From Malaciobacter marinus (GTDB lineage: Bacteria; Campylobacterota; Campylobacteria; Campylobacterales; Arcobacteraceae): 64,000 nt of DNA. Both the position numbers and the translations under genes were made by a program. The stretch is from the NCBI RefSeq assembly GCF_003544855.1, contig NZ_CP032101.1, forward strand, positions 620,001-684,000, given 5' to 3'. Position 1 is the first letter of the stretch; the number at the start of each line of letters is the position of its first letter. This document shows positions 6,069-33,427 of this stretch, piece after piece. The notes under the pieces are model-generated. The model ran no database searches and had not been told where the DNA came from. It was given only the letters and a program-made list of their open reading frames with translations.

Positions 6069-7100
6069 TTATTTTACGATTGTAGCTTCAACTCTTCTGT
6101 TTTTAGCTCTACCTTCTTTTGTTGCATTAGTTGCAAGAGGTTTAGACTCTCCATATCCATGCCATTTTAATCTTTTTGCATCAATATTATATGCTTTTAA
6201 TGCATTAACTGTAGAAGCTGCTCTTCTTTCAGATAATTTTTGGTTATATTTTTCTGTACCAATTGAATCTGTATGTGCTTCAATTTTTGCTTTTGTTGAT
6301 GGGAATGATTTCATAAATTCTGCAAATTTTTTAATTTTTGACTCATATGAATTGTTGATTTTTGCACTATCAAAAGCAAAGTTAATATTTAAATCTGTTT
6401 TTAAAGAACAACCTTTTTCATCTACAAAATCACCTTTTGGTGTATTTGCACATTGATCTTTTGAATCAATTACTCCGTCATTATCACTATCTAGTTCTAC
6501 TTTTTTAGCTTGAACTTCTTTTTTAGGTTCAGGTTTAACTTCTTGTTTTACAGGTTCATGTTTTGTTACATTTGTAGCTTTTTTTCCAAAAGGAATTGCT
6601 AAACCAAAAGTATAAAGTAAGCTATTGTCTCCATGATCAGTTTCAATCATATGTCTTACATCTGTTTTAAATATTAAATCATCACTGATGTTATATCTTA
6701 AACCTACACCATAGTTTCCAAAAAATCCTGTTTCGTTTTTATATGCTTCATGACCAAAAACTTCAACACCCGCACCTATTAAAGTATATAGTGAAGTATT
6801 AGTTGTAAGATCATAATTTTTGATTACATTTGTAAAGATTCTTGAAATCGAAGTATCTCCACCTTTATCATAATCAACATCACCTAAACTTCTTAAAAAA
6901 CCTAGTTCTATTTGATCAAACATGCTTTCTTCAAGATTAAATCCTAAACTTAATCCACCAACCCCATAGTGATCATCAAGAGTAGTATTACCCTCTGTTA
7001 CAACACCACCAACTAATGGAGTTACTTCATATTTGTAAGAACTATCTGCTGCAAACATTAAGCTTGCACATAATACTGTTGATAATAGTACTTTCTTCAT
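6069..7100 (-). CDS. OmpA-family outer-membrane protein
   Basis: A 343-residue porin-like protein. Order: signal peptide (MKKVLLSTVLCASLMFAA), an N-terminal beta-barrel of about 170 residues, a Pro/Lys-rich linker near 185-205, a calcium-binding thrombospondin type-3 style repeat (DSDNDGVIDSKDQCANTPKG), and a C-terminal OmpA peptidoglycan-binding domain with AHTDSIGTEKYNQKLSERRA. The last domain anchors the outer membrane to the cell wall through diaminopimelate. I start at the ATG at 7100, which has AAGGAT 5-10 bases upstream and opens directly into the signal peptide; an upstream in-frame ATG at 7154 would add 18 residues without a ribosome-binding site. Monocistronic, with a strong terminator. 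Confidence 0.93.
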   Translation of the reverse strand: MKKVLLSTVLCASLMFAADSSYKYEVTPLVGGVVTEGNTTLDDHYGVGGLSLGFNLEESMFDQIELGFLRSLGDVDYDKGGDTSISRIFTNVIKNYDLTTNTSLYTLIGAGVEVFGHEAYKNETGFFGNYGVGLRYNISDDLIFKTDVRHMIETDHGDNSLLYTFGLAIPFGKKATNVTKHEPVKQEVKPEPKKEVQAKKVELDSDNDGVIDSKDQCANTPKGDFVDEKGCSLKTDLNINFAFDSAKINNSYESKIKKFAEFMKSFPSTKAKIEAHTDSIGTEKYNQKLSERRAASTVNALKAYNIDAKRLKWHGYGESKPLATNATKEGRAKNRRVEATIVK

Positions 7101-7177
7101 AATTATCCTTGTTTTATTGTTTTTTATATTATAATAGCTAAAACTTAATGACAAAGCATTTAATTGTTCATATTAAC

Positions 7178-8110
7178 TTAATATTTAAAAATTGAATTAA
7201 CAGATTCATTATTATGAATTCTTTTTATTGTTTCTCCAATTATCTCTGATGCAGTTAAAACTGTAATTTTATCTGACTTTTGTTTTGGAGGGATTGTATC
7301 TGAGACTACTAATTCATCTAAAACACCATTTTCAATTCTTTCATATGCTGGACCACTTAATACTCCATGTGTACAGCAAGCCATAACTGATGTTGCACCT
7401 CTTTTTTTAAGTGCCTCTGCTGCTTTAACTAATGTCCCAGCTGTATCAACCATGTCATCAACTAAAATTACATCTTTGCCATTTACATCACCAATAATAT
7501 TCATAACTTCCGCAACATTGGCTTGTTCTCTTTTTTTATCTACAATTACTAAGTCATAGTCAAGTTTATTTGCATAACTTCTAGCTCTAGCAACACCACC
7601 AATATCTGGACTTGCAATAATTGGATTAGCTAATTTTTTAGATCTAATATAATCTACAAACATAATTGAACCAAATAAGTTGTCAACTGGAACATTAAAA
7701 AAACCTTGAATTTGTGCAGCATGTAAATCAATAGTAATTACTCTGTGTATTCCAGCTTTTTCTAATAAATCAGCAACTAACTTTGCAGAAATAGGAACTC
7801 TTGGAGCAGCTTTTCTATCTTGTCTTGCATAGCCATAGTATGGTATTACAGCTGAAATTGATTTTGCACTAGATCTTTTTAATGCATCAATCATAATTAA
7901 TAATTCCATTAAGTTATCATTTGCAGGAGCACTTGTTGGTTGAATTATAAACACATCTTGCCCTCTTACACTTTCTGTAACTTGAACAGAAATTTCTCCA
8001 TCGCTAAATTTATTTAATTTAGCTTCGCCAATTGGTTCTTTTAAATATTCTCCAACTTTCTTGGCAAAATCAGGATTAGCTGAGCCACTAAAAAGTTTAA
8101 AACATGACAT
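7178..8110 (-). CDS. prs: ribose-phosphate pyrophosphokinase
   Basis: Makes PRPP from ribose 5-phosphate and ATP for purine, pyrimidine, histidine and NAD synthesis. A 310-residue class I enzyme with the flexible-loop and metal region DLHAAQIQGFF (near 128-138), the regulatory-flexible-loop segment YARQDRK (near 93-99) and the PRPP-binding motif DDMVDTAGT (near 218-226). Length matches the family. The ATG is preceded by AAGG at about 10 bases. Upstream lies a gap of about 190 bases, so it probably has its own promoter. Confidence 0.97.
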   Translation of the reverse strand: MSCFKLFSGSANPDFAKKVGEYLKEPIGEAKLNKFSDGEISVQVTESVRGQDVFIIQPTSAPANDNLMELLIMIDALKRSSAKSISAVIPYYGYARQDRKAAPRVPISAKLVADLLEKAGIHRVITIDLHAAQIQGFFNVPVDNLFGSIMFVDYIRSKKLANPIIASPDIGGVARARSYANKLDYDLVIVDKKREQANVAEVMNIIGDVNGKDVILVDDMVDTAGTLVKAAEALKKRGATSVMACCTHGVLSGPAYERIENGVLDELVVSDTIPPKQKSDKITVLTASEIIGETIKRIHNNESVNSIFKY

Positions 8111-8266
8111 TATTTTTTTCCTTGTGTTGAGTATTTGTTTATTGCGATTTTATCTAAATACTTCTTACATTGAATTTATATGTATAAATAAAAAAAAATT
8201 ACTTATTGGAATTTTGAGATTAATGTCTTATTTTAAACTATTTTGTAGTTATTTTAAGTATAAATC

Positions 8267-8290
8267 CAAAAGAGGGTAATTTCTCTTTTG
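8267..8290 (-). terminator. hairpin downstream of the first mnmA
   Basis: An 8-bp inverted repeat CAAAAGAG / CTCTTTTG with an 8-base loop, 13 bases past the stop of the minus-strand mnmA. Short stem; moderate support. Confidence 0.5.
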
Positions 8291-8302
8291 AATTTTAGTT
8301 TA

Positions 8303-9337
8303 TTATTTAAAAGTGTTTGTAATCCAAGCACTACCAATAACTTTTTCATCTATGTAAAATACTGCTAATTGACCAGCTGCAACTCCAAATGCTGATTTTT
8401 TAAGCTTAATACTTGCCTTGTCATTTTTAATACTTACTTCACAAGGAAGTAAGTTACTTCTATATCTTAATTTAACAGTACATTTAAAGTTTGTATCTTC
8501 AATATACATATTTAAATTATTTGCTTCAACTATATTTATTTCTAGTGATTCTTTTTTCCCAACAATAATAGTATTATCTTTTGGATTTAAAGATTTTACA
8601 AAATGTGGTTCATGGGCACCATGAACAGTAAAACCTCTTCTTTTTCCAATGGTATAGTGCATATAACCTTTATGTGTTCCTACTTCATTTCCCTCTTCAT
8701 CAAAAACAACACCTGGTTGATCTATATTTGCGTGTTTTTTAATAACATCAGTATAAACAGTATCAACAAAACAAATTTCTTGAGATTCATTTTTTTCTGT
8801 AATTCTTTTATACGAATCACCTAATTTTGAACCAAATTTTACAATGTCTTCTTTTTTATATGTACTCATTGGAAACATCATAAAAGGTAATGCTTCTTTT
8901 TCAACTTGTGAAAGGAAATAGCTTTGATCTTTTGTTTTATCATCAGCTTCATAAATAAATTCACCATCTGTTTTTGCATAATGCCCTGTTGCTAAATATG
9001 AAGCTTTGTGTTCTTTCGCAAAATCTAACATTTTTCCAAATTTGATTTGTCTATTGCATTTAACACATGGATTAGGTGTTGTGCCTTCTAAATATGAATT
9101 TACAAAATAGTCATAAACTTCTTTTGTAAAATCTTCAGCAATATCTAATATATGATATTTAATACCAAGAAATTTTGCAACATTTTCTATATCTTTGATA
9201 TTTGATTCATGATATCCATCTGTTCTATTATGAAGTTTTAGATAAACACCTTCTACTTCATATCCCTCTTTTTGTAGCATATAAGCAGTAACTGATGAAT
9301 CAATTCCTCCACTCATTCCAACCATTACTTTTTCCAT
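8303..9337 (-). CDS. mnmA: tRNA-specific 2-thiouridylase MnmA (copy 1)
   Basis: Thiolates U34 of tRNA-Lys, -Glu and -Gln using ATP and a relayed sulfur. A 344-residue protein with the P-loop-like GMSGGIDSS near residue 7, the first catalytic Cys in NPCVKCNRQIKF near 98, and the second in SQEICFVD near 193. The shape (VYLKLHNRTDG after the first strand) differs clearly from copy 2 about 250 bases away. Ribosome-binding site AAAGGTAAG precedes the ATG. The gap upstream holds a decayed folK fragment. The two copies are divergent paralogues or xenologues, not a recent duplication. Confidence 0.95.
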   Translation of the reverse strand: MEKVMVGMSGGIDSSVTAYMLQKEGYEVEGVYLKLHNRTDGYHESNIKDIENVAKFLGIKYHILDIAEDFTKEVYDYFVNSYLEGTTPNPCVKCNRQIKFGKMLDFAKEHKASYLATGHYAKTDGEFIYEADDKTKDQSYFLSQVEKEALPFMMFPMSTYKKEDIVKFGSKLGDSYKRITEKNESQEICFVDTVYTDVIKKHANIDQPGVVFDEEGNEVGTHKGYMHYTIGKRRGFTVHGAHEPHFVKSLNPKDNTIIVGKKESLEINIVEANNLNMYIEDTNFKCTVKLRYRSNLLPCEVSIKNDKASIKLKKSAFGVAAGQLAVFYIDEKVIGSAWITNTFK

Positions 9338-9381
9338 ATCTTACCTTTAAAAGTCTCTTTTTTAGAAACTATAGATTTAAT

Positions 9382-9530
9382 AAAGGAATAATCACTAATT
9401 CTTTAATGCCCAATTTTATGAAGAAGCATATAGCTCTTCATATTTATAATTAATATGATATTTAATTTTTGGTTTTAGACGTATTTTGAAAGGATCGCTT
9501 TCTTCCATATATAAGTTATAATCTTTACAT
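9382..9530 (-). pseudogene. decayed 3' fragment of folK
   Basis: Two blocks match the intact folK 1.4 kb away. Bases 9471-9506 match 10884-10919 at 32 of 36 positions and still read G-R-K-R-S-F-Q, the HPPK signature; all four differences are G/C in folK and A/T here. Bases 9382-9397 match 10780-10795 at 15 of 16 and correspond to the C-terminal V-I-I-P-L-K. Between them the reading frame is broken by a 2-base length change and in-frame stops (for example Gln to TAA in the M-Q-R-L segment). The fragment sits directly upstream of mnmA copy 1, as intact folK sits upstream of copy 2. Confidence 0.85.
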
Positions 9531-9584
9531 GAATTTATTAGAAGTTAATCTTGTAAAGATTATTAAAAAAGGGATTATAGCATA

Positions 9585-10682
9585 TTAATTATAATCACTA
9601 ATAAATCCACCACCTAAGCAATAATCACCATCATATAAAACAAGGCTTTGTCCTAAAGTTACAGCTCTTTGAGGATTATCAAACTCAACTACTACTTTTT
9701 TATCATCAGCTTGTGTTACTGTACAAGCTTGCTTTTGTTGACGATAACGAATTTGTGCCATTAGTTTATCTCCAACTTTTGGAGCAACTCCAAGTACCCA
9801 ATGCATATGAGTAGCTTCAACACTTTTGTTCATAAGTAAAGGATGATTTGTATCTTGCACAATTGTTAAGGTATTGTTTTCAAGGTCTTTTTTTGCTACA
9901 TACCAAGGTTTATGAATATGATTCTCACCTTCAGTCTCTTTAATACCTCCAACACCAATTCCTTTTCTTTGTCCAAGTGTGTAACAAATAAGGCCTTTGT
10001 GTTTTCCTATTACATTTTCATTTTCATCTATAATATCACCAGGAATTGCTTTTAAATGTTGTGTGATAAATTCATCAAATCTTTGATTCCCTATAAAACA
10101 TATACCTGTACTATCTTTTTTATCACTTACTGGTAAATTGTGCTCTTTTGCTATTTCTCTTACTTCTTTTTTAGTTAAATCTGCAAGGGGAAACATAGCT
10201 TGTGATAATTGTTCACTTGATAATGCATGTAAAAAATAGCTTTGGTCTTTAGTATTATCTTTTGGTGTGTCTAAAACATAATGATCTTTATATTTAGCTA
10301 TTTTAGCATAGTGTCCAGTAGCAATAAAATCTGCACCCATCTTTTTAGCTTCATTTAAAAATACATTGAATTTGATTTCACGATTACATAATATATCGGG
10401 ATTTGGTGTAAGTCCTTTTTTTAGACCTTCTAAAAATACATCAAATACTTTAGTTTTATACTCTTCAACGAAATCTTTACCTTTTACTTCAATCCCTATT
10501 AATTCACCTACTTTTTTAGCATCTTCAAACTCTATACGATTAGGGCATTGACTACCTTTTATGCCATACTCCCAATTACGCATAAATAAGCCTTGTACTT
10601 CATAACCTTGCTTTTTTAATAGTAAAGCAGTAACTGATGAATCAACACCACCAGACATTCCTACAACTACTTTTTTTTTCAT
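9585..10682 (-). CDS. mnmA: tRNA-specific 2-thiouridylase MnmA (copy 2)
   Basis: A second complete MnmA, 365 residues, with GMSGGVDSS near residue 8, the catalytic Cys in NPDILCNREIKF near 104, and the second Cys in STGICFIGN near 201. After the ATP motif it reads GLFMRNWEYG, like the gammaproteobacterial form (MKNWEE), and unlike copy 1. Both copies retain their catalytic residues, so loss of function is not evident in either. Ribosome-binding site GAAGGT precedes the ATG. It lies 66 bases downstream of folK. Likely acquired separately from copy 1; which copy does the housekeeping work cannot be told from sequence alone. Confidence 0.93.
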   Translation of the reverse strand: MKKKVVVGMSGGVDSSVTALLLKKQGYEVQGLFMRNWEYGIKGSQCPNRIEFEDAKKVGELIGIEVKGKDFVEEYKTKVFDVFLEGLKKGLTPNPDILCNREIKFNVFLNEAKKMGADFIATGHYAKIAKYKDHYVLDTPKDNTKDQSYFLHALSSEQLSQAMFPLADLTKKEVREIAKEHNLPVSDKKDSTGICFIGNQRFDEFITQHLKAIPGDIIDENENVIGKHKGLICYTLGQRKGIGVGGIKETEGENHIHKPWYVAKKDLENNTLTIVQDTNHPLLMNKSVEATHMHWVLGVAPKVGDKLMAQIRYRQQKQACTVTQADDKKVVVEFDNPQRAVTLGQSLVLYDGDYCLGGGFISDYN

Positions 10683-10748
10683 TTTATACCTTCTTTAAAA
10701 TAATTGAACAAGAGGTGCTATTTTAAAACTTATAATTAACTCTATGCT

Positions 10749-11243
10749 CTATTTTGTTTTTAATTTATTCATATATTTTAAAGGAATAATCACTGATTCT
10801 CTGTTTGCCCAATCTTTGTGAGGAACAATAAGTTTTTGGGTATTAATTGTTTTATTATCAAAAAAGATAATATCAATATCCAAGGTTCTAGGCGCATCTT
10901 GAAAGGATCGCTTTCTTCCCAATCTTTTCTCTAACCGTTGCATATTTTTTAAAAAATCATTTGGTGCTAGGTTAGTTTTAAGTTCAATTATACCATTTAA
11001 AAAGTTATTTTGATTTAAAAAACCAAATGGTGGATTTAAAAGTAAAGGACTAGTCATTATTATATCAAATCTTGTATCAGCTTTTAAATATAAGAATAAC
11101 TTATCAAATCTTTTTTTTACATTACCTATATTCCCCCCAATACCAATAGTAACAAGATATTTTTTGTCTGAATTAACCTTTTTATTGTATGGAAAATTAC
11201 TTGTATAAAATAGTGTTAAATTATCATCTAATTTTTTTAACAT
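10749..11243 (-). CDS. folK: 6-hydroxymethyl-7,8-dihydropterin pyrophosphokinase FolK
   Basis: Transfers pyrophosphate from ATP to hydroxymethyl-dihydropterin in folate synthesis. A 164-residue protein with TIGIGGNIGN (pterin-binding N-terminal strand) near residue 33 and the HPPK signature GRKRSFQDAPRTLDIDIIFF near 113-132. I start at the ATG at 11243 because AGGAG lies 5-9 bases upstream; the open frame extends 12 codons further without a site. A roughly 30-residue N-terminal extension precedes the usual HPPK start. Gene order peptidase, folK, mnmA on the minus strand. Confidence 0.94.
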   Translation of the reverse strand: MLKKLDDNLTLFYTSNFPYNKKVNSDKKYLVTIGIGGNIGNVKKRFDKLFLYLKADTRFDIIMTSPLLLNPPFGFLNQNNFLNGIIELKTNLAPNDFLKNMQRLEKRLGRKRSFQDAPRTLDIDIIFFDNKTINTQKLIVPHKDWANRESVIIPLKYMNKLKTK

Positions 11244-11299: not shown

Positions 11300-12325
11300 T
11301 TATAAAATTACTGCTTTTCCATCAATCATGGCAACAGTATCTTCTATTCTTACTCCAAACTCATTTGGCAAATAAATTCCAGGTTCAATAGTAAAGACCA
11401 TATTATTTTCGATTATTGTATCTGCTTTTGATGTAATCATTGGAAATTCATGTATGTCAAGTCCTACTCCATGTCCAGTACTATGAACAAAATATTTCCC
11501 ATAACCAGCTTTTGTTATTACATCTCTTGCTAATGCATCTATTTTAGAAGCTTTCATCCCAACTTTTGCATTTTTAATAGCAGTTTGTTGAGCTTTGTAT
11601 ACTAAATCATATATTTTTTGATGTTTTTTATTTTTGAATTTTTGTTCCCTTTTAAAATTAAAACTTTCAAAGTCCACATAAGAAGTACAAGTTCTATCTG
11701 AACAATACCTTTTATATTTTATTCCCGCATCAACTAAAAGCAAATCATGAAGTTTTAATCTTTTTTTAGTTGGTAGGGCATGAGGTTTTGCTGCATTTTC
11801 ATTTATTGCAAGTATTGGTTCAAAACTTAAATTATATTTACCTTGTTGACTCATTTTTTCTATTGCTTTAAAATTTAAAAATTCTTCTTTTTGATTGTAA
11901 GCATTTTTTCTTATATACTTAGCAAGAGTTTTAAAACCTTCTCTTCCTAATTTAGCTGCTTTACTTAATATTGCAATTTCATCATCTGTTTTTATGATTC
12001 TTTTGAGTTTTGAAAAATTTGCTTCTTGAATAAACTCAATATCTAAATCTTGTACTAACTCAGAATATGCAAAATATGTAAAATCATTTGGATCAAATGT
12101 TAACTTTTTAATTTTGCTATCTTTTAAAAGAACTTTGGCAGTTTGGAATAAATCTCTTGATTCAACAACTGTACAATTGTAAGCATACTCTTTTGCTTCA
12201 AGTACATATCTAGCATCAGTTAGAAAAAACTTCTCACTTCCTAGACTTATAAAAATAACATTATCACATGAAAAACCGCACTCATAGTAGATTGCATTTT
12301 CATTTCTTAGTATATAATTTTTCAT
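11300..12325 (-). CDS. M24-family Xaa-Pro aminopeptidase
   Basis: A 341-residue metallopeptidase removing N-terminal residues next to proline. The N-terminal creatinase-like domain spans about residues 1-115; the C-terminal pita-bread domain carries the five metal ligands: Asp in [10 protein letters not shown] and in YCSDRTCT, His in [10 protein letters not shown], Glu in FTIEPGIYL and in VRIEDTV. It reads divergently from aroQ and is 56 bases upstream of the folK start, so the two are probably cotranscribed. The exact specificity (PepP or PepQ type) is not resolvable from sequence. Confidence 0.9.
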
Positions 12326-32214: not shown

Positions 32215-32291
32215 TGGCGCGGTTGACGAGACTCGAACTCGCGACCTCCTGCGTGACAGGCAGGCATTCTAACCAACTAAACTACAACCGC
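32215..32291 (-). tRNA. tRNA-Asp (GTC), unit 1
   Basis: 77 bases including an encoded CCA; acceptor GCGGTTG pairs with CAACCGC, discriminator G, anticodon GTC, T-loop TTCGAGT. Last gene of the twelve-tRNA transcript. Confidence 0.97.
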
Positions 32292-32305
32292 ACAACTAAA
32301 AAAAA

Positions 32306-32381
32306 TGGTGGTCGATATAAGACTCGAACTTATGACATCTACCTTGTAAGGGTAGCGCTCTACCAACTGAGCTAATCGACC
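32306..32381 (-). tRNA. tRNA-Val (TAC), unit 1
   Basis: 76 bases including encoded CCA; acceptor GGTCGAT pairs with ATCGACC, anticodon TAC. Confidence 0.97.
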
Positions 32382-32395
32382 TAAGAAAATTTGAT

Positions 32396-32470
32396 TGGTG
32401 ACCCCTAGGAGACTTGAACTCCTGTGGCATGGATGAAAACCATGAATCCTAACCGCTAGATGAAGGGGCC
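32396..32470 (-). tRNA. tRNA-Glu (TTC), unit 1
   Basis: 75 bases including encoded CCA; acceptor GGCCCCT pairs with AGGGGTC (one G:T pair), anticodon TTC. A substrate of MnmA 2-thiolation by family knowledge. Confidence 0.97.
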
Positions 32471-32545
32471 AAAAAAATATAAAAAAAGTAATAGATAATA
32501 TTGAATAATGAACAAAGGAATTCACTTTTCATTATTGTCTAATAG

Positions 32546-32621
32546 TGGTGACCCGTGAAGGATTCGAACCTTCGGCCACCTCCTTAAAAGGGAGATGCTC
32601 TACCAGCTGAGCTAACGGGTC
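32546..32621 (-). tRNA. tRNA-Lys (TTT), unit 1
   Basis: 76 bases including encoded CCA; acceptor GACCCGT pairs with ACGGGTC, anticodon TTT. First tRNA of this unit. Confidence 0.97.
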
Positions 32622-32637
32622 AATAAACAATAATAAG

Positions 32638-32714
32638 TGGCGCGGTTGACGAGACTCGAACTCGCGACCTCCTGCGTGACAGGCAGGCATTCTAACCAAC
32701 TAAACTACAACCGC
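32638..32714 (-). tRNA. tRNA-Asp (GTC), unit 2
   Basis: Identical in sequence to the tRNA-Asp of units 1 and 3; encoded CCA, anticodon GTC. Confidence 0.97.
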
Positions 32715-32726
32715 ACAACTAAAAAA

Positions 32727-32802
32727 TGGTGGTCGATATAAGACTCGAACTTATGACATCTACCTTGTAAGGGTAGCGCTCTACCAACTGAGCTAATCGA
32801 CC
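32727..32802 (-). tRNA. tRNA-Val (TAC), unit 2
   Basis: Identical to the tRNA-Val of units 1 and 3; encoded CCA, anticodon TAC. Confidence 0.97.
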
Positions 32803-32810
32803 TAATAAAA

Positions 32811-32885
32811 TGGTGACCCCTAGGAGACTTGAACTCCTGTGGCATGGATGAAAACCATGAATCCTAACCGCTAGATGAAGGGGCC
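32811..32885 (-). tRNA. tRNA-Glu (TTC), unit 2
   Basis: Identical to the tRNA-Glu of units 1 and 3; encoded CCA, anticodon TTC. Only 8 bases from tRNA-Val. Confidence 0.97.
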
Positions 32886-32948
32886 AATAAAATAAAATAA
32901 GTAATGAATAGTATCAAATATAAATATAAGATACAATATTCTTTACAA

Positions 32949-33024
32949 TGGTGACCCGTGAAGGATTCGAACCTTCGGCCACCTCCTTAAAAGGGAGATG
33001 CTCTACCAGCTGAGCTAACGGGTC
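32949..33024 (-). tRNA. tRNA-Lys (TTT), unit 2
   Basis: Identical to the tRNA-Lys of units 1 and 3; encoded CCA, anticodon TTT. The 63-base spacer to tRNA-Glu contains a GTATC/GATAC inverted repeat. Confidence 0.97.
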
Positions 33025-33040
33025 AATAAACAATAATAAG

Positions 33041-33117
33041 TGGCGCGGTTGACGAGACTCGAACTCGCGACCTCCTGCGTGACAGGCAGGCATTCTAACC
33101 AACTAAACTACAACCGC
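33041..33117 (-). tRNA. tRNA-Asp (GTC), unit 3
   Basis: Identical to the other two tRNA-Asp genes; encoded CCA, anticodon GTC. Confidence 0.97.
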
Positions 33118-33129
33118 ACAACTAAAAAA

Positions 33130-33205
33130 TGGTGGTCGATATAAGACTCGAACTTATGACATCTACCTTGTAAGGGTAGCGCTCTACCAACTGAGCTAAT
33201 CGACC
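33130..33205 (-). tRNA. tRNA-Val (TAC), unit 3
   Basis: Identical to the other two tRNA-Val genes; encoded CCA, anticodon TAC. Confidence 0.97.
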
Positions 33206-33213
33206 TAATAAAA

Positions 33214-33288
33214 TGGTGACCCCTAGGAGACTTGAACTCCTGTGGCATGGATGAAAACCATGAATCCTAACCGCTAGATGAAGGGGCC
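33214..33288 (-). tRNA. tRNA-Glu (TTC), unit 3
   Basis: Identical to the other two tRNA-Glu genes; encoded CCA, anticodon TTC. Confidence 0.97.
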
Positions 33289-33351
33289 AATAAAATAAAA
33301 TAAGTAATGAATAGTATCAAATATAAATATAAGATACAATATTCTTTACAA

Positions 33352-33427
33352 TGGTGACCCGTGAAGGATTCGAACCTTCGGCCACCTCCTTAAAAGGGAG
33401 ATGCTCTACCAGCTGAGCTAACGGGTC
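33352..33427 (-). tRNA. tRNA-Lys (TTT), unit 3
   Basis: First gene of the array, 22 bases from the -10 element; encoded CCA, anticodon TTT. Confidence 0.97.

Follow-up and report, generated by a model that had tools for sequence, protein, structure and literature searches.

A Stranded folK 3′ End Between Two mnmA Genes of Malaciobacter marinus Is Probably a Retained Promoter and mRNA Leader

Introduction

MnmA thiolates U34 of tRNA-Glu, tRNA-Lys, and tRNA-Gln. In Escherichia coli, thrS has an autogenously controlled mRNA leader that mimics a tRNA anticodon arm. Two classes of MnmA are described: the D-type, with a DxxC motif plus a downstream cysteine, as in Proteobacteria, and the C-type, with a CxxC motif plus a downstream cysteine, as in Campylobacter and Helicobacter (PMC11784392). 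The sigma70 promoters of Campylobacterota have gnTAnaAT −10 boxes and may lie inside genes, as for ftsZ of Campylobacter jejuni, which has a promoter within ftsA; such internal promoters are poorly conserved between species (PMC3847290). A search of a literature library for folK-mnmA or Arcobacter mnmA found nothing relevant.

The locus described here lies in a window of 64,000 nucleotides from Malaciobacter marinus (Arcobacteraceae; contig NZ_CP032101.1, positions 620,001 to 684,000), where two mnmA genes are separated by 247 bases. mnmA2 and mnmA1 share the motifs of the D-type and C-type classes, respectively; unlike the described examples, both classes are adjacent here, and the C-type gene is lost in several relatives. 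As with ftsZ, a putative −10 box of the same type occurs in upstream coding sequence, that of folK. Unlike the ftsA/ftsZ case, the putative promoter is accompanied by a structured leader under strong synonymous constraint, and it has persisted after the death of its host coding sequence. Whereas internal promoters are reported to be poorly conserved between species, this promoter-like box is fixed over 75 genomes.

The original prediction, made from the window alone, took the gap to hold a decayed copy of the folK 3′ end, probably stranded when a foreign folK-mnmA segment recombined at folK. The whole account proposed here, to which we give a probability of about 0.7, is that capture split folK from mnmA1 and that the stranded tail was kept as a promoter and leader.

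Organization of the Locus

On the minus strand, the window runs from a gene for a pepQ-like Xaa-Pro peptidase (11300–12325) through folK (10749–11243), mnmA2 (9585–10682), the gap (9338–9584), and mnmA1 (8303–9337) to prs (7178–8110). The peptidase gene and prs are the upstream and downstream flanks of the ancestral locus. Intact folK precedes mnmA2 and a folK remnant precedes mnmA1, as originally described. The folK product has 164 amino acids from an ATG at 11241–11243 and matches PF01288 with an E-value of 5.1e-26; a PF01288 search of the genome returns this gene as the sole match, a single intact copy.

mnmA1 encodes a C-type MnmA of 344 amino acids (motifs NPCVKC and EICFVD), and mnmA2 a D-type MnmA of 365 amino acids (NPDILC and GICFIG). 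The latter matches E. coli MnmA with 361 bits, against 195 bits for MnmA1. No DsrC/TusE homologue was found in the genome despite the D-type MnmA. The order folK-mnmA2-folK′-mnmA1 resembles a tandem repeat and could be read as a duplicated folK-mnmA unit that later diverged. The two proteins were already judged too unlike for this, and they are indeed only 35% identical and of different classes. mnmA2 is also patchy, with a tree of its own, and the remnant is not nearest to the genome's own folK, so that a tandem duplication is almost certainly not the origin of the locus.

The folK Remnant

The gap aligns colinearly with the 3′ third of folK, from about codon 82 to the C-terminus, and its folK reading frame is interrupted by stops. 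It is a folK pseudogene. The local alignment scores 77, and the match survives comparison with 500 dinucleotide shuffles, which reach at most 45; blastn returns matches of 32/36 (E 3e-7) and 46/57 (E 4e-6) to folK. Within the 36-mer, each of the four mismatches is a change from G/C to A/T. The homology extends further 5′ than first noted, since the N-G-I-I codons (TGCTATAAT, 9574–9582) adjoin the mnmA2 stop. A small open reading frame in another frame of the conserved block (MEESDPFK...) was considered and rejected; its start codon is unconserved and its frame breaks between species.

Capture of mnmA2 in the Arcobacteraceae

The survey covered 104 Arcobacteraceae genomes, one per species, with about 95 neighborhoods fetched. 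mnmA1 is present in nearly all of them, normally behind folK, and mnmA2 is patchy. The phylogeny of mnmA2 is at odds with a tree of the flanking genes (aroQ+pepQ+prs): G041, G058, and G069 of genus g11 stand apart from the other g11 genomes, and G002 of the window's genus, g1, groups with g19. Patchy presence together with this conflict marks mnmA2 as a horizontally acquired gene. Its closest other gene, at 50%, belongs to another genus of Arcobacteraceae. No close match was found elsewhere in Campylobacterota, and a donor search of plasmids and phages gave best matches of at most 48%.

Relatives with a single mnmA in the order peptidase-folK-mnmA, which the capture account calls for, do exist. 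Genomes with mnmA1 only, including G001 of the same genus as the window, have the order pepQ-folK-mnmA1-prs, in which folK usually abuts mnmA1 or overlaps it, and this order is therefore ancestral. The fossil is absent from these relatives, where intact folK adjoins mnmA1. Remnants of folK between mnmA2 and mnmA1 occur in 19 genomes of six genera, and they differ greatly in length and in how far they have decayed. Aligned with folK of different lineages, the remnants of G041 and G058 are nearer to their mnmA1-only sisters than to the folK of their own genomes (86% against 80% in G041; 94% against 88% in G058). In G069, both the intact folK 3′ end and the remnant are nearly identical to folK of the mnmA1-only sisters G060 and G061, with a derived change in common. 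Because the remnants of these three genomes are nearest to mnmA1-only sister folK, the remnant is the stranded 3′ end of the resident folK. In the window's genus, a genome's own folK ranks only 39th to 67th among the matches to its remnant (G000, G002, and G003), and the remnant is therefore not a recent tandem copy. The window's remnant is probably likewise of resident origin, a reading carried over from the other genera because no very close mnmA1-only sister has a block-bearing folK.

In G069, mnmA2 is flanked on both sides by copies of the resident folK end, direct repeats without a difference over at least 57 nt. The 3′ part of intact folK is likewise resident in this genome, so capture can leave a direct repeat; donor DNA bridging sister chromosomes, or a circular intermediate, would give this result. 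These folK-derived repeats, the derived change common to both, and the patchiness and mobility of mnmA2 within the family could also point to a recombination hot spot or attachment site, in which conserved blocks are kept because an mnmA2 cassette moves via folK 3′ ends, with no RNA involved. The unit has no recombinase gene, as a site-specific integrative element would: mnmA2 alone lies between folK and the remnant. Moreover, recombination alone would not fix a 36-nt stretch while adjacent synonymous sites vary, and it predicts neither the free N in TGNTATAAT nor the compensatory hairpin changes described below. We regard a hot spot as a very unlikely cause of the conservation. Capture itself, in which a foreign mnmA segment recombined at folK and stranded its 3′ part beside the resident mnmA, is supported by gene order, patchiness, trees, and sister folK.

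Most genomes with both genes have gaps of at most 60 bp and no remnant; mnmA1 thus does not depend on a leader of its own. G105, G110, and G114 have mnmA2 alone. The Arcobacteraceae are in the middle of exchanging C-type for D-type MnmA, with the stages on view: a single C-type gene, both genes and a recent scar between them, both genes and no scar, a C-type gene broken by an insertion sequence or decayed, and a single D-type gene.

Two further kinds of mnmA1 damage were seen. In G015 (L054, about 7056–9642 of the oriented locus), an IS21-type insertion of about 2.6 kb, encoding an IstA-like protein of 528 aa and an IstB-like protein of 256 aa, splits mnmA1 and leaves mnmA2 intact. In G019 (L055) and G021 (L056), mnmA1 is a C-terminal scrap with stops behind an intact mnmA2, a second type of fossil.

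Nucleotide Constraint in Dead and Intact folK

Two stretches of the remnant are conserved. Block 1 is a 36-nt element at 9471–9506 (minus strand), corresponding to the GRKRSFQDAPRT codons at 10884–10919 in intact folK; block 2, TTGGGC...GTGATTATTCCTTT, occupies 9382–9413 (minus strand) and derives from the WANRESVIIPL codons. Mean identity between genera is 0.90 for block 1 and 0.85 for block 2 in remnants, against 0.52 and 0.60 at the four-fold sites of mnmA1 and mnmA2, respectively, and neutral decay does not extend over the entire remnant. Of the decayed fossil first described, the homology and the broken frame stand, and simple decay does not: a promoter-like box and a structured leader appear to be selected.

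The same stretches are constrained where folK is intact. Codons G109–T120 are almost fixed as GGA AGA AAG CGN TCC TTT CAA GAT GCG CCT AGA ACC, including the rare codons AAG (68/72 genomes), TCC (69/75), and GCG (69/75); usage is 0.07 for AAG, 0.011 for TCC, 0.03 for GCG, and 0.04 for ACC. Synonymous constraint in the best 12-codon window reaches 1.39 in folK, with maxima of 0.18 in pepQ, 0.47 in mnmA2, 0.39 in mnmA1, and 0.30 in prs. Because this constraint in intact folK falls at the stretches that the remnants keep, a promoter and structured mnmA leader probably overlaps the folK 3′ end, and the fossil is probably that leader, kept after the death of the reading frame. Gene conversion was rejected as a general cause of block conservation; except in G069, the remnants share their states with one another and not with their own folK.

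Searched with a covariance model of the block, 72 of the 104 family genomes give a match. In 397 genomes of the phylum the model gives just two weak matches outside the family, one inside the folK immediately ahead of the C-type mnmA of G461 and one not near folK or mnmA. In this folk gene of G461, a genome from another family (L249, about 1990–2050), the sequence AGAAAGCGTTCCTTTCAAGACGC matches the core pattern of the block exactly. The block is absent and the −10 box is kept in G001, G013, G076, and G086, all mnmA1-only genomes with mnmA1 behind folK. In G001 (L043) and G086 (L092), which belong to genera otherwise with mnmA2, the block-less folK is of a KRTRSFK type, an allele possibly brought in by recombination.

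The remnants might yet be plain fossils, decaying capture scars whose blocks survive by chance or through recent insertions. The broken frames, the wide range of size and decay, and the many genomes with mnmA2 that lack a remnant fit such a picture, as do the remnants of G069 and G058, which look recent. Ten remnants (g1, g10, and g19), however, adjoin the mnmA2 stop at one and the same folK codon, a pattern that favors a single old remnant common to them over ten recent ones. In these three genera block 1 nevertheless stays at about 90% identity against about 50–60% at four-fold sites; intact folK is under the same nucleotide constraint, and a hairpin shows covariation. Plain decay is accordingly judged unlikely. 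The argument for selection depends on the remnants being old, and the common junction supports, without proving, their age.

A Promoter-Like Box

The box TGCTATAAT (9574–9582, minus strand), the former N-G-I-I codons directly behind the mnmA2 stop, resembles an extended −10 element and matches the gnTAnaAT consensus of Campylobacterota sigma70 promoters. Its counterpart in intact folK is TGGTATAAT (10987–10995, minus strand). There the N-G-I-I codons read AAT GGT ATA ATN, with GGT and ATA in 75/75 genomes and a variable third position in the final codon. The remnants keep the TGNTATAAT pattern, in which the former Gly position (N) is free to drift to any base. A TATAAT box is present in 17 of the 19 remnants, G069 and G116 being those without. 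The promoter activity of the box, translational control of mnmA1, and the recombination route are inferred.

RNA Structure of the Putative Leader

About 10 bases behind the −10 box lies a hairpin, P1 (9518–9563, minus strand; arms 9552–9563 and 9518–9529), with a z-score of −4.4 in the window. The mean z-score is −4.2 over 16 remnants against −1.6 over 69 intact folK genes; the G005 remnant has no clear P1. In the hand-aligned arms of 11 remnants, with loops removed, five base pairs show changes in both partners, and none of 500 shuffles attains the covariation score.

Block 1 can form a hairpin, GCGAUC-CUUUCAA-AAU(A)CGU, with a 6-bp stem that contains a single bulge; its loop, CUUUCAA, is invariant in all remnants, and in the window the loop-closing pair is lost. 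The stem arises in 1.4% of synonymous recodings of GRKRSFQDAPRT and is found in 69/72 intact folK genes and 17/18 independent remnants. Where its third base is U for G, an A always stands opposite on the 3′ strand and the next base is free. The first base of the former Ala codon has become the free bulge in the dead frame. Direct covariation is modest here (7/500 shuffles; permutation 0.095). The remnant alignment is hand-anchored at the blocks, and the permutation and shuffle tests throughout are uncorrected for relatedness. Conserved secondary structure with compensatory changes marks the remnant as a probable structured mRNA leader, the block hairpin being the weaker part. An Rfam search gave nothing better than E 2.3, both matches being to spurious snRNA or snoRNA models.

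RNAalifold selects the block stem together with a pairing of CCUU with AAGG of the mnmA1 Shine-Dalgarno sequence. Block 2 has two possible pairing partners, GCCUAA in block 1 and the Shine-Dalgarno sequence AAAGG. The conserved UUCCUUU and its pairing with the Shine-Dalgarno sequence suggest control of the start of translation.

The conserved GAAAG and CTTTC arms, set around two variable positions, would also suit a palindromic DNA operator (GAAAG-N5-CTTTC) bound by a protein, or the block might be a separate small RNA. A palindrome leaves the conservation of CAAGATRCGCCTA, TTGGGC, and GTGATTATTCCTTT unexplained, as well as the P1 hairpin. The block matches this genome at folK and the remnant only, with no other copies that could form a regulon, and the interval between the blocks showed no hairpin with a T-run resembling a terminator. 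An operator or small RNA is therefore quite unlikely, and an mRNA leader remains the preferred reading.

A Possible Anticodon-Arm Mimic

The loop C-U-U-U-C-A-A of block 1 fits the substrate pattern U33-U34-U35-N36-A37, with C36, and the block could be an anticodon-arm mimic in the mnmA leader, though we think this doubtful. The likeness to thrS lies in a loop of seven nucleotides with this pattern on a short stem, before the gene of an enzyme that reads that loop. Unlike thrS, the stem is bulged, the loop is identical to none of the genome's tRNA loops for Glu, Gln, or Lys, and binding by the enzyme is hypothetical. The genome's own loops are CUUUUAA for tRNA-Lys, UUUUCAU for tRNA-Glu, and UUUUGGU for tRNA-Gln. 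An exact tRNA-Glu mimic is rejected on this ground, and any mimic is approximate. Autoregulation of MnmA through its own leader is possible, and its binding there is a testable guess only. Elsewhere in the window (32219–33427; genome 652218–653427) is a tRNA array in which a unit with Val, Glu, Lys, and Asp tRNAs is repeated three times in tandem.

Conclusions

In the proposed history, the ancestral pepQ-folK-mnmA1-prs locus would have carried an internal promoter and a structured mnmA1 leader within the 3′ third of folK. A D-type mnmA2 would then have entered by recombination at folK and now lies behind the intact folK, whose 3′ end may serve as its promoter and leader. The 3′ end of the resident folK would have been stranded in front of mnmA1 and lost its coding role. 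Its −10 box, 5′ hairpin, 36-nt block, and anti-Shine-Dalgarno block would have been kept by selection because, as proposed, the mnmA1 transcript still depends on them for its start and its control, which would make the 247-base gap the putative promoter and 5′ leader of mnmA1.

In this sense the locus lets coding and non-coding constraint be told apart in a natural experiment: bases that served only the protein drifted, and those of the putative promoter and leader stayed. It would add an undescribed conserved RNA element of the Arcobacteraceae to an almost unstudied question, the control of tRNA 2-thiolation levels in bacteria.
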